From contig CAIVPR010000053.1 in assembly GCA_903907865.1 (NCBI GenBank), positions 1 through 64,000 of the forward strand: a stretch of 64,000 nt of DNA, written 5' to 3'. The notes under the pieces were generated by a model. It saw only the letters and a list, made by a program, of their open reading frames with translations. It made no database searches and was not told where the DNA came from. This stretch comes from an uncultured Acidobacteriia bacterium. Lineage in GTDB: Bacteria > Acidobacteriota > Terriglobia > Bryobacterales > Bryobacteraceae. The translations under genes and the position numbers were made by a program. Positions 2,066 through 41,940 of the stretch are shown here, in pieces (position 1 is the first letter of the stretch; each line of letters opens with the position of its first letter).

Positions 2066-3907
2066 ATGGCGGGCATCCTCAACTCGATCTCCGCCCTGCG
2101 CGAGCGGCCGGAATGGAAGTTCTTCGGTGTCCTGCCGAAGGCTGCCCCCGGCTTGGCCGCCGCGTGGTGGACGGTACTGATTCTGCAGGGCCTACTCCCC
2201 GCCCTATTCGCCCTTGCGATTGGCAGACTGGTGGGCGCCGTCGAGCACCAAAGCACGCTCGCCGTACCGTTGGCCTTCGCCGGAACGGTCTTCGTCCTCC
2301 TGCAGATCCTGTCGCCGTTGCAACGGGCAATCGGCGCGAATCTCGGCAGCCGCGTTTCAGCCTGGCTCTACGATGAGTTGACCCGCTCCTGCGTCGCACC
2401 TCCAGGAATGGGCCACTTGGAAGACCAACGACTGACCACGGACTTGGCAGTGGCCCGCGACTTCGACCTCGGAATCACCGGCGCGCCCATGTCGATCTCC
2501 GTGGATTTCATTGCCGGAGGATTGGTGGGAATGTTTTCAGGACTGGCGGCGGCCGCACTCCTAGGACTGTGGGCATGGTGGGCACCGTTGGTCTTGGCCG
2601 GAGCCTGGCTCGGCACCCACTGGCTGCTACGGGAGAGCGCAATCTGGCAGGACAGGAATACGGACGAGGTTCGCAGCGCCCAGCGCCATGCCGACTATGC
2701 CTATCGCCTCGCCGTGGAGCCGCCCGCAGCCAAGGAACTGCGGCTGTTTGGGCTCGGCAAATGGACCGTGGAGCGCTTTACCTCCCGCCGCCGACACTTG
2801 CTCGACCTCCAGTACCACGCGACCCGACTACGGGAGCAACCCTTGGCTTGGAGCCTGCTCCTGGTGCTGGCGGCCAATGGATTGGTCTTTGCAATGCTGG
2901 TTTCGGACGCAATCGCCGGGCGGCTGACGCTGGGACAAGCGGTCACGTTCGCCAACGCGGCGGTAGGTGCCGGAGCAATCGCATTCGGGGGCCTTTCGTG
3001 GGCCGTCGACTCGGCGTCCGCCCCGGTGGGCGCTGTCCTGCGCCTCAGGGCGGCGATGGCCAAAGCCGGGGCTTTGGGAACCCTGGTCGGCACGAAACCC
3101 GCAGCGGGAATGCCAGCGGCCCAGGTCCGATTCCGCAACGTGCACTTCCACTACGAGGGCGAGGGTGCCAAACCCGTACTCGACGGACTCGACCTCACCA
3201 TCCCCGCTGGAACCTCCATGGCAATCGTGGGCCGCAACGGCGCGGGCAAGACCACCTTCGCCAAATTGCTCTGCCGCCTCTACGACCCGCAGCAGGGCGC
3301 AATCGAAATCGACGGCGTCGACTTGCGGGATCTGGATCTCGACGCTTGGCGGCATCGCGTCACCGCCGTCTTCCAGGATTTCATCCGCTTCGAACTCCCG
3401 CTGCGCGACAACGTGGCACCCGCCGGAGCCCCGGACGACGCCCCCATCCGCGATGCTCTCGCCGAAGCCGGGGCCTCGTCGCTGGCCAGCCTCGACACCA
3501 CGCTCGCCAAGGGCTACCAAGGCGGCACCGACCTTTCTGGCGGCCAGTGGCAGCGGGTCGCGCTCGCCCGCGCCCTTTGTGCTGTCAAACTCGGCGCGGG
3601 ACTGGTGCTGCTCGACGAGCCCACCGCGCAGCTCGACGTCCGCGGAGAGGCTGAGATCTTCGAGCGTATCCTCAAAGCCACGCGTCACACCACAACCATC
3701 CTGATCTCGCACCGATTCTCCACCGTCCGCCTGGCAGACCGGATCTGCGTCATCGAAGACGGCAAGGTGGTGGAACTGGGCAGCCACGAGGAACTGATGG
3801 CGCTCGGGGGGCGCTACCGGACCATGTTCGACATGCAGGCGTCGCGCTTCGACGAGACGGAAGACGCCGAAACCAGCGGGGAGGTGTCGCTCGATGAGCC
3901 GGCCTAA
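2066..3907 (+). CDS. ABC exporter half-transporter, catalytically normal subunit
   Basis: The 613-residue protein fuses an N-terminal membrane domain (several hydrophobic spans within residues 20-320) to an ATPase domain. Visible ATPase motifs are Walker A GRNGAGKTT at about 389-397, a Q-loop FQDFIRFE, signature LSGGQ at about 490-494, Walker B LVLLDEP near 516 and the H-loop ISHRFSTVR. This is the type I exporter layout. The stop overlaps the start of the following half-transporter by 14 bases, so the two are probably co-translated as a heterodimer. FQDFxRFE-type Q-loops are common in exporters near peptide natural-product clusters, but no such cluster is visible here, so the substrate is unknown. 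Confidence 0.88.
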   Translation: MAGILNSISALRERPEWKFFGVLPKAAPGLAAAWWTVLILQGLLPALFALAIGRLVGAVEHQSTLAVPLAFAGTVFVLLQILSPLQRAIGANLGSRVSAWLYDELTRSCVAPPGMGHLEDQRLTTDLAVARDFDLGITGAPMSISVDFIAGGLVGMFSGLAAAALLGLWAWWAPLVLAGAWLGTHWLLRESAIWQDRNTDEVRSAQRHADYAYRLAVEPPAAKELRLFGLGKWTVERFTSRRRHLLDLQYHATRLREQPLAWSLLLVLAANGLVFAMLVSDAIAGRLTLGQAVTFANAAVGAGAIAFGGLSWAVDSASAPVGAVLRLRAAMAKAGALGTLVGTKPAAGMPAAQVRFRNVHFHYEGEGAKPVLDGLDLTIPAGTSMAIVGRNGAGKTTFAKLLCRLYDPQQGAIEIDGVDLRDLDLDAWRHRVTAVFQDFIRFELPLRDNVAPAGAPDDAPIRDALAEAGASSLASLDTTLAKGYQGGTDLSGGQWQRVALARALCAVKLGAGLVLLDEPTAQLDVRGEAEIFERILKATRHTTTILISHRFSTVRLADRICVIEDGKVVELGSHEELMALGGRYRTMFDMQASRFDETEDAETSGEVSLDEPA

Positions 3908-14848: not shown

Positions 14849-15973
14849 TTACTGCGGCGGCGCGAACGGGTAATACCCGGCCCGGTAGCGCAAGGTCACG
14901 TTGGGCAAATTGTTGACCGTGATCTTGATACGGCGGAACTGCCTGTCAGCCCGCTTCTCCCCAACATCGGGGTTGTAGCGCATCACGTACTGAGTCGTGA
15001 TCTCGCCCGCAATGTTGGCGATCGACCGGAAGATCGCGCTCGAAATCTCGGCCGTATAGCCGCCGGTACCGACCGCGATCGCATAGTTGCCTGCATCCGA
15101 AGGCGTTGACAGGTACCCGGAAATATCCTTGTAGATGTTGTTGAGCGGCGTTTCCACCTTGCCGCCGGTCTGCTCGGTCAGTTGCACCAGGTTGTCCTCG
15201 TCCTCCGTATGCGCCCCGAAAGAGACGGTGCTCATGGCGTAGATGGTCACGAGGTTCCGTTGCGCGATCTCGATCACTTCCTTGAGCGTCTTCTTGCTGG
15301 TGTTGTCGTGCCCGTCGCCTATGATCACGATTACGCGGCGCGGCTCGTAAGGCTCGCCCTGGACGGTCTTGCGGCTGGTGCAGGCCAGATAGATGGCGTC
15401 GTACAGCGCCGACCCGCCGCCCGGCTTCATCTTCGCCAATTTCGCCACCATCTTCTCGGAATCAAAATTGGTGTCAGCCACCAGTTCCGCCTCGTTGCCG
15501 TAGGTGATCAAGTAACCGCTGTACTTCTTGTCGCCCGGCAGCAGGTTCAGGATCAGTTCCGTGGCGGCCTCCTGGTATTTGGCCCAGTGGATCTTCATCC
15601 CGTTGCTCTGGTCGAGCAGGAAACCGATGACGATGGGCTGCGACTGCTCATGGCTGAAGTACCCGATATTCTGCTCCTTGCCCTCGTCGAACAGGTGGAA
15701 ATCGCTTTTCACGAGGTTCGAGACGAAACGGCCCTTGTCGTCGGCCACGGTTACGGGCACGATGACTTCGTTGACCGAAACACGGATCGGTTCTTGACCG
15801 CGGGCGGCCGGGTTCAGCACCAAGGCGGCGGCCAGGGTGACGGCCAAAACGGCGCGGACACCCCTCGATTCAACGGCTCTCCTGCTAGAGAACACGGCCA
15901 GCCTCGGCGTGATTGCGGGCTGGGCGCGCCGCGGCTCGTGTGCTGGAGGACGGGATCCGAAGAAGCGGGACAT
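14849..15973 (-). CDS. VWFA-related Acidobacterial protein (TIGR03436-like)
   Basis: 374 residues; the ATG at 15973 is preceded by TAGGAG. An N-terminal stretch of ~40 basic residues precedes a hydrophobic segment (VRAVLAVTLAAALVLNPAARG), then the family signature IRVSVNEVIVPVTVADDKGRFV and a von Willebrand A domain. The metal-ion site reads LLDQSNGM instead of DxSxS, so the MIDAS is degenerate, although GGGSALYDAIYLA and IIGDGHDNTSKKTL keep the fold pattern. The C-terminus ends YRAGYYPFAPP, typical of the group. Exported; probably involved in surface interactions, function not established. Confidence 0.88.
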   Translation of the reverse strand: MSRFFGSRPPAHEPRRAQPAITPRLAVFSSRRAVESRGVRAVLAVTLAAALVLNPAARGQEPIRVSVNEVIVPVTVADDKGRFVSNLVKSDFHLFDEGKEQNIGYFSHEQSQPIVIGFLLDQSNGMKIHWAKYQEAATELILNLLPGDKKYSGYLITYGNEAELVADTNFDSEKMVAKLAKMKPGGGSALYDAIYLACTSRKTVQGEPYEPRRVIVIIGDGHDNTSKKTLKEVIEIAQRNLVTIYAMSTVSFGAHTEDEDNLVQLTEQTGGKVETPLNNIYKDISGYLSTPSDAGNYAIAVGTGGYTAEISSAIFRSIANIAGEITTQYVMRYNPDVGEKRADRQFRRIKITVNNLPNVTLRYRAGYYPFAPPQ

Positions 15974-16109
15974 GGTGCTCCTATTTTATCCCCTTCGGAA
16001 CCTGTCCCGCACAACGAGCCCCCGCGTTGCCGTTCGAATGTCCTCGACGCACCCAAATGTCTATAAAAAATTTATGCACCCGACGCCATGGTACGCTTGA
16101 ATCGTCGCG

Positions 16110-16943
16110 ATGTATAAGGCCTTCTTTGGACTTGTCAGCAATCCGTTGAACCTGAGCCCGGACCCTGCCTTTCTGTATCGCAGCCCCCACCACGAGGAGG
16201 CGCTGGCGAACCTGATCTACGGCGTCCAGAGCCGGAAGGGTTTCATCGTGCTCACCGGTGAAGTCGGAACCGGTAAAACCACGATGCTGGAATGCCTTCG
16301 GGACCATTTGGACTCGCACCGCATCCCCTTTGCCTTTGTTTTCAACTCGCGCCTGACCCCGGACCAGTTCTTCGAGATGGTCGCGTACGATTTGGAACTG
16401 CCCTGCCAGCGCACCTCCAAGACCGAAGTGCTGATCGCCCTCAACAACATGCTGCTGGAGCGCACCAACCAAGGGCGGACGACGGCGCTGATTGTCGACG
16501 AGGCCCAAAACCTCGACTGGGACGTACTTGAGGAGATCCGGCTCCTCGGCAATCTTGAAAACCGCCGGGGCAAACTGCTCCAGATCATCCTCGCGGGCCA
16601 GCCCGAATTCCAGGACAAACTGGAACAGACCGAGTACCGCCAATTGCGCCAAAGGATCGCACTTCGCTGCAACCTGCGGCCGTTCAACCTTGCCGAAACC
16701 GGCGAGTACATCGCCACACGGCTCGCCCGCTCGGGCATGCGCACCCAAAAGGTGTTTCCATCCGAGGTCCTGGCCGCGATCCACCACCGCACTCGCGGGA
16801 TCCCCCGTCTCATCAACTCGGTCTGCGACAATCTGCTGCTGACCGCGTTCGCCATGGAGAGCCGGGTCGCGACGTTGGAGATGCTCGACGAGGTCTCGCG
16901 CGACCTCCAGTTGGACTTCACGTCCGCGCTCGCCACAGCTTAA
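16110..16943 (+). CDS. ExeA/MshM-like AAA ATPase
   Basis: 277 residues starting MYKAFFGLVSNPLNLSPDP, the conserved opening of ExeA-type ATPases. Walker A GEVGTGKTT lies at about 51-59, Walker B ALIVDEAQN, then sensor-like LAGQPEFQDKL and GIPRLINSVCDN. Members serve type II secretion, MSHA pili or exopolysaccharide/PEP-CTERM loci, remodelling assemblies at the inner membrane. This copy lacks the C-terminal peptidoglycan-binding domain of ExeA and has no secretion genes nearby, so its system is not identifiable from the window. Confidence 0.87.
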   Translation: MYKAFFGLVSNPLNLSPDPAFLYRSPHHEEALANLIYGVQSRKGFIVLTGEVGTGKTTMLECLRDHLDSHRIPFAFVFNSRLTPDQFFEMVAYDLELPCQRTSKTEVLIALNNMLLERTNQGRTTALIVDEAQNLDWDVLEEIRLLGNLENRRGKLLQIILAGQPEFQDKLEQTEYRQLRQRIALRCNLRPFNLAETGEYIATRLARSGMRTQKVFPSEVLAAIHHRTRGIPRLINSVCDNLLLTAFAMESRVATLEMLDEVSRDLQLDFTSALATA

Positions 16944-32405: not shown

Positions 32406-32459
32406 GCGATCAGCTGTTTCGCCAACTCCCCGTGCACGTCCGTCAGCCGGAACGGCCGA
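32406..32459. repeat. Direct repeat A1 (duplicate of DUF1501 gene 3' end)
   Basis: 54 bases identical at 53 positions to 33200-33253; the one difference is G/A. On the minus strand it encodes [18 protein letters not shown] followed directly by TAG. It lies 24 bases beyond the stop of the cassette gene and is not joined to any recognisable DUF1501 sequence upstream. Confidence 0.95.
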
Positions 32460-32483
32460 ACTCTCCCGGCGAACCCACACAAA

Positions 32484-33128
32484 TCAAAAGTCTTCGGCGC
32501 GCATCGTAAGCCGGACGGTGCCGTTCTGGCCCGGATTGATGGTGAGCGTCGCAACTTGACCCGTGGCGGGGTCGATGAAGCGTTTGACAACCGGATCGGT
32601 TAGGACCAGAAGAAACTCGCGCGTCACCGGATCGGGTCCGATCTCTGCGATGTTGATCGGTATGTTGTTGGTGCTTCCGATGGTGATCACTTCGTCGTCA
32701 CCGGCACCTTTGATCCCGCCCTTGATGGCATCCACTCCGAATGCCGAGACGGCACCGAGGACGCCGGTCAGCCCCCCTGTCGCGACCCCGATCCCCGCAC
32801 CCAGGATGGTCGCAAACAACCCAAGAAGGAACTTCGCCACGTCGCTTGTTTGCTGCCGATTAACGACGGTGAGGTTCAACAAGGTGGAGTCCTGGACCTC
32901 CTCCTTGAACAGGCCATTGCTCGAAAAGCCTCCGAGGGACAGGTCGTTGTCGCCCGACACCAAGTCTGCGACCGTCAGCGCTGACGTCACGGTGGGGGCA
33001 CCAGAACGAGGATAGATCAACGTCGCCATCACGGCGTGCTTGATCGACTCGTCATGCACGTTTGGGGGTTCACCGGTCAGATTGAGGGTAATGCTGTCAA
33101 TGGAAACGAATAAAAGTTTTCTCTGCAT
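32484..33128 (-). CDS. Hypothetical protein with central hydrophobic segment (cassette A)
   Basis: 214 residues; the ATG at 33128 has a strong AAAGGAG seven bases upstream. Soluble N-terminal half (SIDSITLNLTGEPPNVHDES, LTVADLVSGDNDL), a Gly/Ala-rich hydrophobic stretch at about 99-135 (FLLGLFATILGAGIGVATGG, LTGVLGAVSAFG), and a beta-rich C-terminal half ending TVRLTMRAEDF. No family recognised. Gly-Ala hydrophobic stretches of this kind occur in membrane-inserting effectors and phage proteins, but that is only a resemblance. It is the sole gene between the 54-base direct repeats. Confidence 0.7.
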   Translation of the reverse strand: MQRKLLFVSIDSITLNLTGEPPNVHDESIKHAVMATLIYPRSGAPTVTSALTVADLVSGDNDLSLGGFSSNGLFKEEVQDSTLLNLTVVNRQQTSDVAKFLLGLFATILGAGIGVATGGLTGVLGAVSAFGVDAIKGGIKGAGDDEVITIGSTNNIPINIAEIGPDPVTREFLLVLTDPVVKRFIDPATGQVATLTINPGQNGTVRLTMRAEDF

Positions 33129-33195
33129 TCGAATTCTCCTTTGAACTGGACTGAGCTTCTGCCATGTTAGCTAATCGCCAGCTTGAATGCAAGGT

Positions 33196-34599
33196 TCAAG
33201 CGATCAGCTGTTTCGCCAACTCCCCGTGCACGTCCGTCAACCGGAACGGCCGACCTTGGAACTTGAAAGTCAGTTTCGTGTGGTCGAAGCCCAGCAAGTG
33301 CAGCATCGTCGCGTGCAAGTCATGCACGTGGACCTTGTCCTTCACCACGTTGAACCCGAGGTCGTCGGTCTCGCCGATCACCGCCCCGCGCTTGATCCCG
33401 CCGCCCGCCATCCACATCGTGAAAGCGTTCGGATGGTGGTCGCGGCCGTCGTCGCCACCCTGCACCATCGGCGTCCGACCGAATTCCCCGCCCCAAACGA
33501 CCAGCGTGCTGTCCAGCAACCCGCGCTGCTTCAGGTCCTTAATCAGTGCCGCCGCCGCGCGGTCGGTATCCTGGCAGTTCTTCGTGATGTCCTTCACCAG
33601 CGCCGAGTGCTGGTCCCACGCCTCGTGGTAGAGCTGGACGAAACGCACTCCCTTCTCCACCAAACGGCGCGCGTAGAGGCAGTTGTTGGCGAACGAAGGC
33701 TTGCCCGGCTCGGCCCCGTACATCTCGAGCGTTTCCTTCGACTCCTTGCTCAGATCCATCAGTTCCGGCGCGCTGGCCTGCATCCGGAAAGCCATCTCGT
33801 AGGAATTGATGCGGGTGGAGATTTCGGGGTCGCCCGACACGCCCAAGTGCATCTCGTTCAACTTCTTGATCGAATCGAGGGAGTCGCGCTGCACCTGGTC
33901 GTCGGCACCGGCGGGGTTGGAGAGATACAGCACCGGGTCTCCCGACGAACGGAACTGGACGCCTTGGTACACCGACGGCAGGAAGCCGCTGCCCCAGCAC
34001 GAACTGCCGCCGCTCGGGCCTTTCTTGCCCGAACTGAACACCACGAACGCCGGGAGGTTGCGCGATTCGCTGCCCAACCCGTACGTCACCCACGCCCCCA
34101 TCGACGGCCGTCCAAACAGCATCGACCCCGTGTTCATCAGCAACTGCCCGGGCGCGTGGTTGAAGGCGTCGGTCACCATCGACTTCACGATGGTGATGTC
34201 GTCCACAATCTCCGCAAGGTGTGGCACCAGGTTGGTAAGTTCCGCGCCCGCCTGGCCGTACTTCTTGAACTCGAACTTCGGCCCTAGCAGCTTGGAATTG
34301 GGATTGATGAAGGCCGACCGGTAGCCTTTCAGCAACTCCGGCGGCGGCAGCGTGCCGTCGAACTTCTTGAGTTGCGGCTTGTTGTCGAATAGCTCCAAGT
34401 GGCTGGGCGCGCCCGCCATGAACAGGAAAATGACGTTCTTTGCCTTGGGCGCGAACTGCGGGGGCTTGGGGGCCAGCGGGTCGGACGACACGGCCGCCTG
34501 CGCGGAATCCTCCATGAGGCTGCGCAGCGCGACCGCGCCCAGCCCGACTCCGCATTGCTCGAAGAACCAACGACGTGAAATTTGGGTACCGATGTTCAT
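33196..34599 (-). CDS. DUF1501 family exported protein
   Basis: 467 residues with a twin-arginine-like leader ([21 protein letters not shown]). The sulfatase-like alkaline-phosphatase fold is seen in [58 protein letters not shown] and [16 protein letters not shown]1501 genes normally follow a DUF1549/DUF1553 cytochrome gene in Planctomycetes and Acidobacteria. Here that partner (37140-40160) is on the same strand but separated by 2.5 kb of inserted material. A duplicate of the partner's 3' end lies three bases before this ATG (TAGGCCATG). Function of the pair is unknown, probably periplasmic polymer breakdown. Confidence 0.9.
33200..33253. repeat. Direct repeat A2 (within intact DUF1501 gene 3' end)
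   Basis: Partner of 32406-32459. Just left of it, CTTGAA (33182-33187) and TTCAAG (33195-33200) form an inverted repeat that abuts the junction. The TGA stop of the present DUF1501 gene lies outside the repeat, i.e. in cassette sequence, whereas copy A1 keeps a TAG. Confidence 0.95.
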
Positions 34600-34601
34600 G
34601 G

Positions 34602-34633
34602 CCTAATCCTTGGTGATCGTTTCGTCGAGATTC
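34602..34633. repeat. Direct repeat B1 (duplicate of DUF1553 gene 3' end)
   Basis: 32 bases matching 37139-37170 at 31 positions. On the minus strand it encodes NLDETITKD then TAG, three bases before the DUF1501 ATG, i.e. what the original operon junction should look like. Confidence 0.93.
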
Positions 34634-34857
34634 CGCGCATGAATAACCGCCCCGTGCGCACGCTCTCCCACACCCCGATCTTGATCATACTCCAAACCAT
34701 GACTACGAGCCCGCTCCCTGACCCCCTCAACCGTTCCTTGCACCGCGCCCTCGGCCAGCAAGAGCGCCGAGAGTCGTTCCCGATGGTGCTCCAACAAGTG
34801 ATCGGCGAGGCGGTCGATGGCATCCAGCCGCTTTCGAATGCTGCGTTCCTGTCTCAA
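34603..34857 (-). CDS. Small helical protein downstream of the sigma-like factor
   Basis: 84 residues; TTG start at 34857 with GGAGGG just before it, 18 bases after the sigma-like stop. Charged and helical (RKRLDAIDRLADHLLEHHRERL, VEGVRERARSHGLE). The frame runs into repeat B1, so its last residues NLDETITKD come from the duplicated DUF1553 end. It may be a genuine small partner of the sigma-like factor (anti-sigma-type) whose tail was acquired at the junction, or a chance frame. Confidence 0.4.
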   Translation of the reverse strand: MRQERSIRKRLDAIDRLADHLLEHHRERLSALLLAEGAVQGTVEGVRERARSHGLEYDQDRGVGERAHGAVIHARNLDETITKD

Positions 34858-34875
34858 GTGCCCTCCAGATAGGCC

Positions 34876-35427
34876 TCAGGCTGTGGCAAGCGCACGGTAC
34901 CGGTTGGCGAAGGTCCGCTTGACGCGCCGCTTAACGTTCCGCACCCATTCCACCGTACGATTTGCGGCTGCGGCGATTGCCAGGTCGGCGTTGCCCAATT
35001 GGTTGTCGTCAATCTGCTCGACGGCGCGTAGCAGAACAGCCACCTCAGGGTCCTCCGCCGCCAACTCCCTCAGCGATTCGGCAATACGCGCCGGGCGTGT
35101 GTCCGTCGAACGGCTGGGACGCCGCCCACCGCAGGACGACAAGACCGGCCGGGCGGGGTCGTCCAGCGAACGCGTGCGTTTGCTGCGCAGGAGTCGGTCC
35201 ATGAGTCTGCGCTTGAGGACCAAACAGAGGTAGTTCTCCAAAGTTCCACGATCCGGATCGAACGGGAGGTCCCCTTGCTGGTACGCGAGAAGGACATCGT
35301 GGACCGCGTCCTCTGCGGAACAACCGTCGAATACGGCCGGAAAGGCCATCGCCACCAAGCCCGCGCGTGTCCAGAGCGCCAGCAAGAGCTTCCTCATCTC
35401 GGTGTCGTCCAGTTGTTGTTGGGCCAT
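34876..35427 (-). CDS. Sigma-70/ECF-like RNA polymerase sigma factor
   Basis: 183 residues from the ATG at 35427, which has GGGAGG five bases upstream; the frame extends to 35493. Region 2-like sequence MRKLLLALWTRAGLVAMAF, CSAEDAVHDVLLAYQQGD, RGTLENYLCLVLKRRLMDRLL, and a region 4-like helix-turn-helix LGNADLAIAAAANRTVEWVRNVKRRVKRTF. Likely an ECF-type factor with a divergent linker (Arg/Ser/Pro-rich, residues ~100-125). Located in cassette B next to a divergently transcribed PEP-CTERM protein, which it might control. Confidence 0.7.
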   Translation of the reverse strand: MAQQQLDDTEMRKLLLALWTRAGLVAMAFPAVFDGCSAEDAVHDVLLAYQQGDLPFDPDRGTLENYLCLVLKRRLMDRLLRSKRTRSLDDPARPVLSSCGGRRPSRSTDTRPARIAESLRELAAEDPEVAVLLRAVEQIDDNQLGNADLAIAAAANRTVEWVRNVKRRVKRTFANRYRALATA

Positions 35428-35576
35428 GCGCGCCTCCCGTATCCATTGCGATTGAGATCGGGCGGTTTCGTCAAGAATCTTTTCAAAAAACACATGGCGA
35501 AACTTGGAGTTGCCATTCGCAGGATGTTCGAGGGTTGGCCAGCGCCTAACCCGAGACTATTTTCAGGAGATTACGG

Positions 35577-36695
35577 ATGAGGATGAATCGAACGAATCAG
35601 ATGTTCCTGCTGGGGCTGGTGGCGTGCGGGCCGGCCATGGGAGCGTCCATCACGGACCTAGGGACGTTGGGTGGGTTTGGGAGCTGGGCGTATGGCGTCA
35701 ACGCCAGTGGCCAAGTCGTGGGAAGTGCTGTCACTTCTGATTTGGAATCTCACCCGTTCGTGTGGTCGGCAGCCACAGGAATGGCGGATCTGGGCACACT
35801 GGACGGCAACTATGGCGAAGCTCATGGCATCAACGCGAGTGGGCAGGTCGTGGGATATGTCGACGGCCCGGGGGTGACCGGCCGTGCGTTCCTGTGGTCG
35901 GCGGGAGGCGGCATGACCGACCTCGGTACACTCGGCGGCACTTTCAGCCTAGCGTATGGCATCAACGCCGACGGGGAGGTCGTAGGTGGCGCAGCTACCT
36001 CGACAGGTGCGAATCACGCGTTCTTGTGGACGGCGGGCGTGGGAATGACGGATCTGGGTACGCTAGGGGGCTCCTTCAGCAACGCCTATGCCATCAACGC
36101 CGGTGGGCAGGTTGTGGGCGAAGCGTCCACTTCGGGCGGTGCGAGTCACGCGTTCTTGTGGTCGGCGGGCGGAGGAATGACGCAACTTGGCATCTTAGGT
36201 AATTTCGGTACCGGCCGAGGGATCAATTCAGCCGGACAGGTCGTGGGCGATTCCTACACTACAGACAATGGCCTATTTGACCCATTCGGATACAAGGGAG
36301 AAGAACCGTTCCCTCTCGGTGGAGGCGGTGGTGTTGGCACCGCCACGGGTATCAACAACCGTGGTCAGATCGCTGGTTACTCATATAATGCCACTGGCAA
36401 TCTTGATCTCGTCGCGTATTGGTACTCGGGAGGTGTTGTGACAGATCTGAATACTCTCCTTCCTGCCAATTCTGGCTGGCAACTTGAGAAAGCCACCGCG
36501 ATCAATGACGCCGGGCAGATCGTAGGATACGGCATCAACCCAGACGGCCAAACGCATGCGTTCCTCCTCGACACGGCGGCCCCGGAGCCCGGCTCAATTG
36601 TCCTACTGTTGTCCGGCTCTGCCATCCTGGTAATCAAACGCCGGACCACCCTCGCTTCCCTCAGGTTCAGACGTAAGCATCTTGGGATACGATGA
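35577..36695 (+). CDS. HAF-repeat protein with PEP-CTERM sorting signal
   Basis: 372 residues; AGGAG precedes the ATG. Signal peptide (FLLGLVACGPAMGA), then about seven tandem HAF repeats of the type TDLGTLGGxxSxAYGINAxGQVVG ... HAFLW, a beta-propeller-like array. The C-terminus PEPGSIVLLLSGSAILVIKRR is a PEP-CTERM tail, followed by an extra basic extension. Exported and processed by an exosortase, not in the window. Repeat-to-repeat similarity is very high in the middle three units, suggesting recent internal duplication. In cassette B. Confidence 0.9.
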   Translation: MRMNRTNQMFLLGLVACGPAMGASITDLGTLGGFGSWAYGVNASGQVVGSAVTSDLESHPFVWSAATGMADLGTLDGNYGEAHGINASGQVVGYVDGPGVTGRAFLWSAGGGMTDLGTLGGTFSLAYGINADGEVVGGAATSTGANHAFLWTAGVGMTDLGTLGGSFSNAYAINAGGQVVGEASTSGGASHAFLWSAGGGMTQLGILGNFGTGRGINSAGQVVGDSYTTDNGLFDPFGYKGEEPFPLGGGGGVGTATGINNRGQIAGYSYNATGNLDLVAYWYSGGVVTDLNTLLPANSGWQLEKATAINDAGQIVGYGINPDGQTHAFLLDTAAPEPGSIVLLLSGSAILVIKRRTTLASLRFRRKHLGIR

Positions 36696-36699
36696 GGGT

Positions 36700-36936
36700 A
36701 TGGAAACCACGTGTGATTGGTCCGCCTGTCTAGCAGTTGATCGGAACCCGGAGCGCCTTGGCGGAGCCTGGGCGTTTCGGGGCACCCGTGTGCCGGTCTC
36801 CGCGCTCTTCACAAACCTCGCGAGCGGTGCAACCGTGGACGAGTTTACCGATTGGTTCCCCGGGGTCAGCCAAGAGCAGGTGAACTTGGTCCTTGAACAT
36901 GCCGCTCAAGGACTGACGGCCCCGCTCGCCGCGTAA
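36700..36936 (+). CDS. Solitary DUF433 protein
   Basis: 78 residues from the ATG at 36700. DUF433 signatures LGGAWAFRGTRVPVSALF, LASGATVDEFTDWFPG and VSQEQVNLVLEHAA. Antitoxin-like DNA-binding fold, but unlike the copy at 20974 no DUF5615 toxin follows; the next 200 bases carry no gene. Starts five bases after the PEP-CTERM gene stop. N-terminal Cys residues (CDWSACLAVD) are characteristic of one DUF433 subgroup. Confidence 0.8.
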   Translation: METTCDWSACLAVDRNPERLGGAWAFRGTRVPVSALFTNLASGATVDEFTDWFPGVSQEQVNLVLEHAAQGLTAPLAA

Positions 36937-36988
36937 CCGTCCGCGACCCTCCCGCGCCTCTGCGCGGGCACCAGGTCGACTCCTGTTT

Positions 36989-37096
36989 CAGAGCCACGAC
37001 AGCGATGGACCGGGCCCTTCAATCTCCCCACAAACGCTCGTTCCCAGTTGCACAATGGGTTGCGGGAAAGACTGCTCCATGACTGTCGCGGCTCTG
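36989..37096. repeat. Diverged, rearranged copy of the GGTCGCGGCTC inverted-repeat family
   Basis: Arms 36989-37008 and 37077-37096 are complementary at about 17 of 20 positions. They contain GAGCCACGAC and GTCGCGGCTC, the cores of the repeats at 46259 and 59600, but in the opposite order, as if right and left halves of neighbouring units had been joined. Located between two convergent stops at the right end of cassette B. Confidence 0.55.
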
Positions 37097-37138
37097 TCAA
37101 CGCGCAGCCCGCCCATTAACCGGGAAGAGGACATAAGC

Positions 37139-37170
37139 CCTATTCCTTGGTGATCGTTTCGTCGAGATTC
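37139..37170. repeat. Direct repeat B2 (3' end of intact DUF1553 gene)
   Basis: Partner of 34602-34633 with one A/T difference. Encodes the closing NLDETITKE of the intact gene, a strongly conserved ending (LNLDE-type) in this family. Confidence 0.93.
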
Positions 37171-40160
37171 AGCACCACGCGAGAAACCGCAGTCCAAGCT
37201 GCGGCCTTCACTGCATCGCCGCCTTTGGCCAGGGCCGGACCCGCGAACTTTGCCGGATCCAAGCCACTGCCCGCAAACCGCGACTGCTCCCGTGCCAGCA
37301 GCGCCAGCAGTTCGGCCTGTTCCGGCGCGCTCGGCGGACGCGACAGCACCCGCTTCACCACATACCGGATGCGCTGTTCGTCGGTCGTGCCACCATTTTC
37401 GAGTGCCTTCGCCGCCAACGCCTGCGCCGATTCGAGGAACAACGGCTCGTTCAACATCGCCAGCGACTGCAACGGCGTGTTCGACCGCGACCGTCGCACG
37501 CACGAACTCTCCCCGTTCGGCGCGTCGAAGGTCTGCAGGATCGGATACGGCACGCTGCGGAAACGGAACGTATACAGCGCCCGACGGTATTTCTCCCCGC
37601 CTGTCGATTCATTCCACACCTTCGGACCGTAGCTGGTCGGGGGCTGGAACAGGAACGACGGCGCGGGCGGGTAGGCGTTGTCGCCGCCAACCGTGGAGTT
37701 CAGCAGCCCGCTGGTAGCCAATGCGATGTCCCGGACCAACTCCGCATCCACACGAAAACGGGGGCCTCGCGCCAGAAGCCGGTTGTACGGATCCTTCGAC
37801 AACAACTCCGGCGTCGCATTCGACGATTGCCGGTAGGCGGCGGACAGCAGGATCGTTCGCAGCGTACCCTTGACGTCCCAGCCCTTGTCCATAAACTCGA
37901 CCGCCAGCCAGTCCAGCAACTCCGGATGCGATGGTGGCGAGGCCTGGGAGCCGAAATCCTCGGCGGTCTCCACGATGCCGGTACCGAACACCTCAAGCCA
38001 CATCCGGTTGACGAACGCTCGGGCGGTAGTCGGGGAGTCGCGCGCCACGATCCACTTCGCCAATGTGAGGCGATTCACCGGCGCGTTGGCAGGCAGCGGA
38101 TTCAGAAACGACGGCACGCCAGGCTGCACGACCTTCCCCGGCGTCAGGAAACTCCCGCGGGTAAGTTGGTGCGTTTCGCGCATCTCGTCGCGCTCGTTCA
38201 GGACCAGCTGCGACGAACCCTCGGGATGGGTCTTCCACAACTCCGCGATGGTTGTATTTTCGTCCTTCCACTCGGGAACGGTCGTCCGCCAGTAGGCGAA
38301 GACGGCCTGTTCCTGGTCCGACGAGCGCCGCTCAGCGGGAATCGCCATGATCTCGCGCACCTTGGCAGGGACGGGGTCGGCAACGGCGTCGGGATCAGTG
38401 GTGACGGACACGCGCATCCGCCCCAAGTTCTGGTTCTGGTTGTCGTCGCTGTTCCAGCCGCCGCCATTCTGCTTCAGGTAAACGGTGAGGATGGTTTCGC
38501 CTTCGGTCGAAATCGCTTCAGCTGCGTTGAAAACGGCCTTGCGGGCCTGATTGCGCAGTCCGGGCCCGACATCAATGCCCCATGCCGAGTTGTCGTTGCT
38601 ATCGATGGCCAGCTCCACCGGGCCGGTGGTGCGCTTCTTGTCCGTCTTGTCGAAGTACATCGGCAGCAGCGGCGCTTCCGCCGGATTCACGTCGGCGGTG
38701 GCGCGGACGAACTTCACCACCTTCACGGCCTTCGGGTCCGACGCGGGCGCGATCTCCACTTTGAACTCGCTCAGCGCGCCGGTTCCAGTGATCGACCGAC
38801 CCGGTCCACCCAACGGCAGATTCGGATCCGTCAACAGTTCCAGCCGGAACGCCGTGATGTTCTTCAGGTCAGTCTTCGCCGTCAGCTTGACGGTGTGTTT
38901 GGTGGGCGCATAGCCCTGTGCCAGCAACGACCCATCCTCCTGCAGGATGTAGCGCTGCCCGCCGGTGGAAATGTCGTCCACCTCCGGCTTGATCACAGTC
39001 CAGCGGGTCTTGTCCGGCACCGAGGCCTCCCAGCGGTGCATCTTCTCACGCCAGTCGGAGGTACGGTGCTGCAACCCGGCCTCGATTTCCTTCGTCCGCC
39101 GCAAGATCCCCGCGATCTGCATCTGCTGCGCCGGGGAATACACAGGTGCCGTCGATTCGTGCGAGTTGTTGAGGAACGCGAAAAGCCGGTAGTACTCCTC
39201 CTGCTTGAGCGGGTCGTACTTGTGGTCGTGGCACTGGGCGCACTGGATGGTGACGCCGAGCATGCCCTTCCCGATGGCCTCCATGCGGTCGAACATGGCC
39301 TCCATGCGGAACTGTTCGGGGTCGATGCCGCCCTCCTCGTTGATCATGGAGTTTCTGAGGTAACCTGTCGCAACCCGTTGATCCTGCGTAGGGTTGGGCA
39401 ACAGGTCGCCAGCGATCTGCTCCGTGATGAACTGGTTGTAGGGCATGTTGCGGTTGAAGGCGTTGATGACCCAATCGCGGTAGAACCAGACGAAGCGGGG
39501 CTTGTCCTTCTCGTAGCCGTCGGAGTCTGCGTAACGAGCACCGTCGAGCCAGTGGCGCGCCCATTTTTCACCATAGTGGGGCGACGCGAGGAGGCGGTCA
39601 ACCTGTTTCTCCCAGGCGCGCGGACTGCGGTCGGCGAGGAAGGCGTCGACTTCCTCGGGTGTCGGTGGAAGCCCCGTGATGTCGAGCGCGGCACGGCGGA
39701 GGAACGTGGCACGGTCGGCTTCGGGCGAGGGCGACAGGCCTTCGGCTTCCAGCTTGGCCAGGATGAACCGGTCCACCGGGTTCCGCAGCCACTTTGCGTT
39801 CTTCACCGGCGGCAGCGCCGGACGGACCGGGGCCACAAACGCCCAGTGCTTCTTCTTGGAGCCCGCGATCGAATCGGCCCACGTCTTGATGGTGGCGATG
39901 TCGGCGTCGGCAAGCCGGCCGCCCATCGGCATGCGGGCCGCGTCGCCCACTCCGGCCACTCGCCGGTAGATGTCGGCGGCCTTGGCATCAATGGATTCCG
40001 GACGGTCCAGCCGCAGCCCCCCGCTCTGGAGTTTTTCGCCGTGGCAGGAGACGCAGCGCGTTTCGAGGATCGGGCGGATGGGGGCGGTCTGGGCGTGGAG
40101 GCAGTGTAGGGCGAAGAGCGGGATGGCGGCGGCGACCATGGCGGGGCGGCGTGGAGGCAT
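37140..40160 (-). CDS. PSCyt1-DUF1549-DUF1553 protein (planctomycete-type cytochrome)
   Basis: 1,006 residues. Signal peptide (AAAIPLFALHCLHAQ), a cytochrome-like heme site CVSCH near residue 36 (PSCyt1), DUF1549 (PVDRFILAKLEAEGL, FLRRAALDITGLPPTPEEV, LDGARYADSDGYEKDK), a second CAQCH site, a central beta domain, and DUF1553 (LTLAKWIVARDSPTTARAF-type, VNRMWLEVFGTGIVETAEDFG, SNTPLQSLAMLNEPLFLE). Periplasmic; thought to take part in oxidative polymer degradation, function unproven. Its usual DUF1501 neighbour is displaced by cassette B. Confidence 0.93.
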   Translation of the reverse strand: MPPRRPAMVAAAIPLFALHCLHAQTAPIRPILETRCVSCHGEKLQSGGLRLDRPESIDAKAADIYRRVAGVGDAARMPMGGRLADADIATIKTWADSIAGSKKKHWAFVAPVRPALPPVKNAKWLRNPVDRFILAKLEAEGLSPSPEADRATFLRRAALDITGLPPTPEEVDAFLADRSPRAWEKQVDRLLASPHYGEKWARHWLDGARYADSDGYEKDKPRFVWFYRDWVINAFNRNMPYNQFITEQIAGDLLPNPTQDQRVATGYLRNSMINEEGGIDPEQFRMEAMFDRMEAIGKGMLGVTIQCAQCHDHKYDPLKQEEYYRLFAFLNNSHESTAPVYSPAQQMQIAGILRRTKEIEAGLQHRTSDWREKMHRWEASVPDKTRWTVIKPEVDDISTGGQRYILQEDGSLLAQGYAPTKHTVKLTAKTDLKNITAFRLELLTDPNLPLGGPGRSITGTGALSEFKVEIAPASDPKAVKVVKFVRATADVNPAEAPLLPMYFDKTDKKRTTGPVELAIDSNDNSAWGIDVGPGLRNQARKAVFNAAEAISTEGETILTVYLKQNGGGWNSDDNQNQNLGRMRVSVTTDPDAVADPVPAKVREIMAIPAERRSSDQEQAVFAYWRTTVPEWKDENTTIAELWKTHPEGSSQLVLNERDEMRETHQLTRGSFLTPGKVVQPGVPSFLNPLPANAPVNRLTLAKWIVARDSPTTARAFVNRMWLEVFGTGIVETAEDFGSQASPPSHPELLDWLAVEFMDKGWDVKGTLRTILLSAAYRQSSNATPELLSKDPYNRLLARGPRFRVDAELVRDIALATSGLLNSTVGGDNAYPPAPSFLFQPPTSYGPKVWNESTGGEKYRRALYTFRFRSVPYPILQTFDAPNGESSCVRRSRSNTPLQSLAMLNEPLFLESAQALAAKALENGGTTDEQRIRYVVKRVLSRPPSAPEQAELLALLAREQSRFAGSGLDPAKFAGPALAKGGDAVKAAAWTAVSRVVLNLDETITKE

Positions 40161-41505: not shown

Positions 41506-41883
41506 TCAAGGCTCGGTGGGCGCGGTTATCTTGAACCCCTCCTCGTCCTCGTCCCACGTCTGGTTCTCGATATAGGCCTTGATCGTTGCCTCATCCACCG
41601 CGCCCACCGTCGCGCAGAAATACCATCGAGCCCACATGTGCTGGCCCCAGTACCGCTTCCGCAAGTCCGGGAATTCCGCCTGCAGATGCCGCGACGACCG
41701 GCCTTTAATGTACTGCGCTAGTTTCGCCGGTGCCAGGATTGGCGGTGCCGACAGCTGCAGGTGGATGTGGTCCGGCGACACCGCCCCCCGCCCCTTCAGA
41801 ATCTTGTATCGGTATTTCGTGCACCACACCAAGTGGTACTTCAAGTCGAACACCGCGTGTGCGCTATGCCTGTACTCCGCCAT
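41506..41883 (-). pseudogene. tnpA: IS200/IS605-type Y1 transposase with internal deletion
   Basis: 125 residues from ATG 41883. The N-terminal motif FDLKYHLVWCTKYRYKIL and the HUH site SPDHIHLQL, KGRSSRHLQAEFPDL, WGQHMWARWYFCATVGAV and AYIENQ with the catalytic Tyr are those of TnpA. Between KILKGR and GAVSPDHIH about 23-26 residues normally present (the helix after beta-2) are missing, in frame. The enzyme is probably inactive, although an unusual short variant cannot be excluded. Hairpins flank the gene on both sides. Confidence 0.8.
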
Positions 41884-41911
41884 CCATCCCATTGTCGAAG
41901 ATCGGAACGGG

Positions 41912-41940
41912 CCGCTGGAAGCGGACCGCCTCAAAGGCGG
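41912..41940. repeat. Hairpin pair upstream of the IS200-like transposase
   Basis: CCGCT-GGA-AGCGG (41912-41924) and CCGCC-TCAAA-GGCGG (41926-41940), next to the transposase 5' end. Counterpart of the cluster at 41416-41504; together they may mark both ends of the element. Confidence 0.65.

Follow-up and report, generated by a model that had tools for sequence, protein, structure and literature searches.

The window analysed in this study comprises bases 1-64000 of contig C53 in the genome assembly of an uncultured Acidobacteriia bacterium (7.51 Mb in 186 contigs; genome G000), and contains an operon of two genes on the reverse strand in which the 3' end of each gene is present twice. The first gene, coding for a PSCyt/DUF1549/DUF1553 protein (37140-40160; hereafter the DUF1553 gene), is separated from the second, coding for a DUF1501 protein (PF07394; 33196-34599), by an inserted segment referred to as event B, and the DUF1501 gene is itself the target of another insertion, event A. 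Event B consists of an in-gene copy of the DUF1553 3' end (37139-37173, reverse strand), an insert of 2502 nt (34637-37138) and a leftover copy of the same 3' end joined to the start of the DUF1501 gene (34602-34636, reverse strand). The insert carries genes for a DUF433 protein (36703-36936) and a HAF-repeat PEP-CTERM protein (35577-36695) on the forward strand, and a sigma-70-like gene (34876-35493) and an 84-codon open reading frame (ORF; 34603-34857) on the reverse strand, the latter lying mostly in the insert and running into the repeat. Event A, on the reverse strand, includes an in-gene copy of the DUF1501 3' end (33200-33256), a 737-nt insert with one orphan gene (32463-33199 and 32484-33128, respectively) and a leftover copy (32406-32462) adjoining the outer flank.

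The two repeats, and the content of one gene in A and several in B, are as described in the initial annotation of the window. Repeat A is identical at 53 of 54 nt (32406-32459 and 33200-33253), and at 55 of 57 when extended to the limits given above (95.1 bits), while repeat B is identical at 31 of 32 nt (34602-34633 and 37139-37170) and at 33 of 35 when extended (55.4 bits). In a self-comparison of the window they rank second and fourth, ranks one and three being internal repeats of the HAF gene, and B barely exceeds two unrelated pairs that each score 54.5 bits (one at 3221/5025 with 68% identity over 175 nt, the other a low-complexity pair near 28.2 kb). Both repeats lie above the best direct repeat found in 60 dinucleotide shuffles of the 14 kb around the locus (36.5 bits), and a chance origin was rejected on these grounds. 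No third copy of either repeat was detected in the assembly at E<=0.001. A known RNA element was likewise rejected, with no Rfam match at gathering score between 31000 and 41000.

The initial annotation had noted that in both events the copy adjoining the ancestral flank retains a proper stop codon. The outer copy of repeat A ends with GCGTAG, as in the congener G018, and thus keeps a TAG stop codon; the in-gene copy ends with GCTTGA, and the DUF1501 reading frame of G000 now closes with the TGA supplied by the insert. The inner copy of repeat B yields the junction TAGGCCATG at the DUF1501 start.

Homologues of DUF1501 were found in 58 of the 61 genomes searched, and the DUF1553 gene directly precedes it in 15 of 18 best-matching orthologous regions fetched, in agreement with the expectation that the operon is normally contiguous. 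Thirteen of these were recognised by the junction sequence and two (L045 and L047) by coordinates, while L039 shows the DUF1553 3' end only; 12 further loci (L023-L034) are outside the count. In the contiguous relatives the repeat is present in a single copy, representing the empty site of event B. Of the three remaining regions, that of the congener G015 (L036) has insert B, and those of G018 (L035) and G010 (L049) are cut by contig ends; G018 carries the insert on another contig (L065). The inner junction of B is identical in both congeners, and the gene order is also the same in G015. Event B therefore happened once, no later than the split of G000, G015 and G018, or has spread among these three species. 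In all three, the 84-codon ORF continues in frame into the leftover DUF1553 end, which fits a gene truncated at the join that now ends at the leftover stop codon.

Two G018 contigs (L065, 3770-3949, and L035, 4906-6312) hold slightly different DUF1501 starts, which points to mixed strains or to a break in the assembly at the repeat. The putatively toxin-like protein encoded beside DUF433 in G018 (L065, 1057-1389) has no Pfam match. An intergenic repeat family, GTTGTGGGGCAGCC...TTGGCTGC with its variants, occurs in G000 (C44, 182.6-193.8 kb; 9-22 BLAST matches per query in 1.6 Mb), and a stretch resembling it is found where insert B of G015 begins (L036, 6713-6800).

Insert A was seen in the window genome only, and is absent from G015 and G018, where another gene follows DUF1501. 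The two events thus differ in age and are separate, as had been proposed. The initial annotation had regarded the presence of the same inserts in close relatives as an argument against its reading; such sharing is found for B, at the same place in G015 and G018, and not for A. The orphan gene of A has no Pfam, NCBIfam or PADLOC match. Of the 60 other genomes searched, one (G010) has a homologue with 42% identity, which adjoins a different gene, and a scan of contigs returned the same G010 record and one distant match in an Aminicenantes metagenome-assembled genome (MAG). No repeat flanks the homologue in either G010 or the MAG, and with this narrow occurrence the orphan gene was rejected as a self-mobile unit.

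The initial annotation had proposed searching genomes for duplicated gene 3' ends. Such a search was performed for 1,603,898 bases of the G000 genome (about 21%, a non-random part, with 1313 genes from our own simple predictor), considering same-strand repeat pairs 150-10000 bases apart. Forty-seven pairs passed, and manual removal of within-gene pairs, paralogs and families with more than three copies left 11 events, with pairs C20 11297/15030 and C42 80569/81394 counted within their own events. Seven events are at 3' ends (A, B, C13 3847, C20 rpoC, C44 271113, C5 64773 and C42 79838), three at 5' ends (C114 1198, in a joined piece from contig base 90000; C28 53890; and C28 72375, at a contig end), and one, C12 9492, is intergenic. 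According to the automatic tags, C28 53890, scored as 5', also touches a 3' end, and C12, scored as intergenic, is near the 3' end of its own insert gene. The gene names rpoC, amidohydrolase (C42), coaE (C114) and methylmalonyl-CoA mutase (C28) are presumptive assignments that do not come from a family search. Repeat lengths vary from 29 to 543 nt, the copies of the nine events other than A and B are 85-97% identical, reaching 97% in C28 and C42, and the repeat boundaries of the 3'-end events lie within about 18 nt of the stop codon.

This position near gene ends is more frequent than expected. When two random segments of matched length were drawn per event, since an event could score at either copy, on average 2.7 events touched a 3' end and 4.0 any end, giving p=0.0045 for at least seven 3' ends and p=0.00025 for at least ten ends; a laxer null with one segment gave p=0.00025 and 0 of 4000, respectively. 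The same structure is nevertheless present at 5' ends (C114 and C28) and between genes (C12), and no common core is evident among the seven repeats compared, which speaks against the claim of the initial annotation that a mechanism targets the 3' ends of coding genes.

Both sides of a non-homologous join are visible at C42 only. The end of the amidohydrolase-like gene is followed there by a DUF2442 gene and a piece of the next gene; after these come the leftover 29 nt, a second pair of small genes, and then the next gene itself. The piece of the next gene (80569-80720) forms the end of the insert, and where it abuts the leftover 29 nt the two have a CAGG in common, resembling a microhomology join. 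The arrangement can be taken as a tandem of two versions of a single intergenic region.

The origin of the two copies could be tested directly at rpoC, where the repeat is 543 nt long with 92% identity. Over positions 16306-18768 of C20, G000 differs from G018 at 223 of 2463 positions (9.05%), and over 15613-16297 at 9 of 685 (1.31%; Fisher p=2.6e-15), whereas the corresponding values between G018 and G015 are 5.36% and 3.65%. The in-gene end of rpoC shows 8 differences per 540 nt to G018 and 24 to G015, and the leftover copy differs from them at 36 of 537 (6.7%) and 41 of 537 (7.6%) positions. A 17-row tree unites the in-gene end with G018 and G015 and leaves the leftover copy outside this group (100/99), the grouping of the in-gene end with G018 alone reaching just 89/62, while a 5-row tree of the gene body places G000 outside G018 and G015 (100/100). 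The reading frame of the leftover copy matches the in-gene protein except for the C-terminal tail, which resembles other congeners. In G018 and G015 rpoC directly joins the native flank, in G015 for about the first 60 nt. The divergence, the trees and the native flank of these congeners show that the in-gene 3' end of rpoC was imported from a G018-like donor, and that the leftover copy is native.

The rpoC gene of G000 (C20 12258-16152; locus L087) is thus a hybrid, with the last approximately 690 bases being G018-like and the native end located 2.8 kb downstream. The "duplicate" is therefore the old gene end standing beside the donor one, as would result from a one-sided homologous exchange combined with a non-homologous join. 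The crossover is located between 16306 and 16258, which is 100 nt or more upstream of the repeat, whose boundary is at 16152 (the leftover row being used in this alignment within the repeat only). This is the position expected for a linear event with one anchor, and not for a circle integrated through a crossover within the repeat. The insert begins right after the stop codon with a small gene and a sub-threshold PIN match; on reading, the insert and the native flank contain similar small genes, with a 51-nt match, although no genome showing the order presumed for the donor was found.

The 3' flank of rpoC looks like a hotspot. Second, partly decayed rpoC 3' ends, together with further rpoC fragments, are present downstream of rpoC in G009 (L146, 2246-7770), where the insert holds a MazE-PIN pair, and in G001 (L147, 7642-13511). 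The same flank in G015 contains putative transposase-like ORFs (L149, 2149-3425).

Taken together, the two repeats in the window are probably the leftovers of one-sided exchange with DNA of related bacteria and probably do not represent a new type of cassette. The proposal of such a cassette in the initial annotation is not supported, as the payloads of the events differ and one of the two rpoC copies is an imported allele and the other a native one, so that neither is a duplicate of the other. In the proposed mechanism, donor DNA containing the same gene with different neighbours would pair with the resident gene and cross over inside it by homologous recombination, while the other, non-homologous end of the donor piece would be joined slightly upstream of the resident gene's own stop codon. 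The product would be a hybrid gene with the donor 3' end, followed by the donor's neighbouring genes and a leftover native 3' end on the old flank; a tandem of two alleles, later trimmed, could lead to the same product. Ku-type end joining may have made the non-homologous join, which is plausible given that 18 of 19 genomes in the genus, G000 among them, have Ku. No gene is broken by such outcomes, so selection could keep them and remove most others, and selection for intact genes may in this way explain why the events look targeted to gene ends. One-sided exchange would account for the variable repeat length, the diverged copies, the absence of an integrase or a core, and the 5'-end cases.

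That A and B arose like the rpoC event is suggested by analogy, since their copies of 35-57 nt are too short to be assigned to donor or native alleles. Identity profiles along DUF1501 and DUF1553 gave no import signal, and several other observations weigh against one-sided exchange. Over the first 1350 nt of DUF1501 the identity to G018 and G015 is steady at 77-88%, with no shift, and no relative was found in which DUF1501 is joined to the present outer flank of A, that is, no empty site. Import was demonstrated directly at one event, rpoC; at C13 and C5 comparison with relatives was uninformative, partly because rows with a wrong orientation or position were set aside (G018 and G010 at C13, G010 and G015 at C5), and the C28 query aligns to G015 and G018 just up to shortly before the repeat. 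G018 itself is without the rpoC insert, and the actual donor was not seen. At C44 the leftover copy carries protein-changing differences, so divergence there may reflect decay after insertion instead of a donor difference, and the four bases shared at the C42 join could be chance. The list of events was picked by hand from a sample that includes the window that prompted the search.

A true target duplication, in which a break close to the gene end, staggered or made by paired nicks, is filled on both sides and captures stray DNA by Ku-type end joining, is an unlikely explanation. The copies would start identical, as the near-identity at A and B and the 97% identity of the C28 and C42 copies would suggest, and the wide distribution of Ku is in line with it. 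The rpoC copies, however, stem from different lineages, 543 nt seems long for a staggered break, and the insert of C42 contains a fragment of the neighbouring gene.

In another explanation, which needs no foreign DNA, the native region was duplicated in tandem within the lineage and afterwards underwent deletion and decay; the same fragment at C42 and the extra rpoC fragments beside the leftover 3' ends in G001 and G009 speak for it. This comes close to the alternative named in the initial annotation, that each repeat is the remnant of a second gene copy, in so far as further remnants of the locus persist at C42 and in these two genomes. Such a history is nonetheless improbable, because the in-gene end of rpoC is imported and, beyond the end repeats, the self-comparison revealed no strong copy of any flanking gene within insert A or insert B.

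A site-specific system of cassettes, mobilised in trans and recognising and rebuilding gene 3' ends, would fit the seven 3'-end events with their boundaries close to the stop codon, and two of the 21 repeat pairs (A-C42 and B-C20) share a stretch longer than expected (p ~0.03), but it was rejected as very improbable, since no k-mer of six or more is common to more than three of the seven repeats compared (the segment taken for C5 extended as far as the stop), repeat lengths are widely variable, 5'-end and intergenic cases exist, the orphan gene of A occurs in G010 without flanking duplication, and no integrase is among the family matches of the insert A and B proteins, the last point having been stated correctly in the initial annotation.

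The payloads of the inserts are diverse. Family matches over the cut-off include BrnT/BrnA in C44 and PIN_3, with a small partner, in C5, while ParE in C114 and PIN in C20 are below threshold; C12 contains an AbiJ_NTD4/PDC-S32 protein, C28 a DUF4062 protein, and C13 a P-type ATPase. In the window, B contains the DUF433, sigma and HAF genes and A the orphan; of candidate addiction-type genes, B has DUF433 alone and A has none. A gene pair in L158 (789-1223) is presumably HicB/HicA. The inserts total 17.4 kb. Among 140 sampled small proteins (of 357), 13 matches to members of the PIN, HicB-like, DUF5615, BrnA and ParE families were found, some of them from inserts. Enrichment of toxin-antitoxin genes in the inserts looks likely but is treated as a lead, because such genes are common elsewhere in this genome too.

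Two side observations should be mentioned. A 98-nt segment of G015 (C302:9983-10080), about 1.8 kb from that genome's own copy of the mutase-like gene, matches the 3' end of the G000 gene with 93% identity; in G000 the same gene is the site of a 5'-end event. Near the locus in the window, there is a short ORF (41506-41934, reverse strand) with a putative resemblance to a Y1/REP-associated transposase.

How small genes for addiction and defence pass from one chromosome to another when neither a transposase nor an integrase is involved is, to our knowledge, not well explained. If most of the scars are allele pairs as at rpoC, they provide a readable record of integrase-free gene acquisition, including the donor lineage, the crossover point and the payload. 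As a tentative generalisation, gene ends in this genus could be general landing places for toxin-antitoxin, defence and orphan genes without a mobile element, the known "long target duplications" could be donor and native alleles side by side, and each scar could record recipient, donor and breakpoint. The data also carry a warning that repeats at gene ends can mimic a site-specific cassette where selection for intact genes could create the pattern. Integrative elements inserted in gene 3' ends rebuild the target gene with a duplicated 3' end; unlike these, the events described here vary in repeat length and lack an evident common core, and no integrase was found in A or B.

Among known systems, passages of PMC1643837 and PMC3154945 refer to "insertion with long target duplication" in Helicobacter pylori (Nobusato et al. 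2000, as cited there), where the inserts are frequently restriction-modification genes (PMC1643837). As in these accounts, gene-sized inserts are here placed between long target repeats, and some of them are toxin-antitoxin or defence-like, whereas at rpoC the two repeats are not copied from a single target but represent a donor and a native allele, and the phylum is a different one. Long direct repeats together with a single-copy empty site are found for B and rpoC, and A has repeats alone. Transformation-made merodiploids, described in a portion of PMC3784515, can likewise retain two copies in tandem after recombination of incoming DNA, over approximately 100-900 kb, in contrast to the short gene ends that remain here. 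Homology-facilitated illegitimate recombination is known from Acinetobacter, Pseudomonas stutzeri and pneumococcus, as cited in sections of PMC5361080 and PMC2884548, and has been proposed for variable segments (PMC2884548). In type VI secretion system loci of Vibrio, the 3' end of the old effector and its immunity genes are thought to be displaced behind a new module, according to an excerpt of PMC5361080; the displaced locus there is an array of toxin and immunity genes, while here rpoC and the DUF1553-DUF1501 operon retain their genes whole and just a short native 3' end is left. In the open-licence full texts found, none paired toxin-antitoxin genes with homology-facilitated illegitimate recombination, and those retrieved for Acidobacteria and illegitimate recombination were unrelated, judged by title and the start of the abstract. 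The events in G000 would share with this process, as outlined in those sections, a single homologous anchor and another end joined without homology, and a homologous crossover with a donor tract on one side is seen at rpoC only. The likely explanation belongs to a known kind, of which rpoC presents an unusually clear example of the mechanism.

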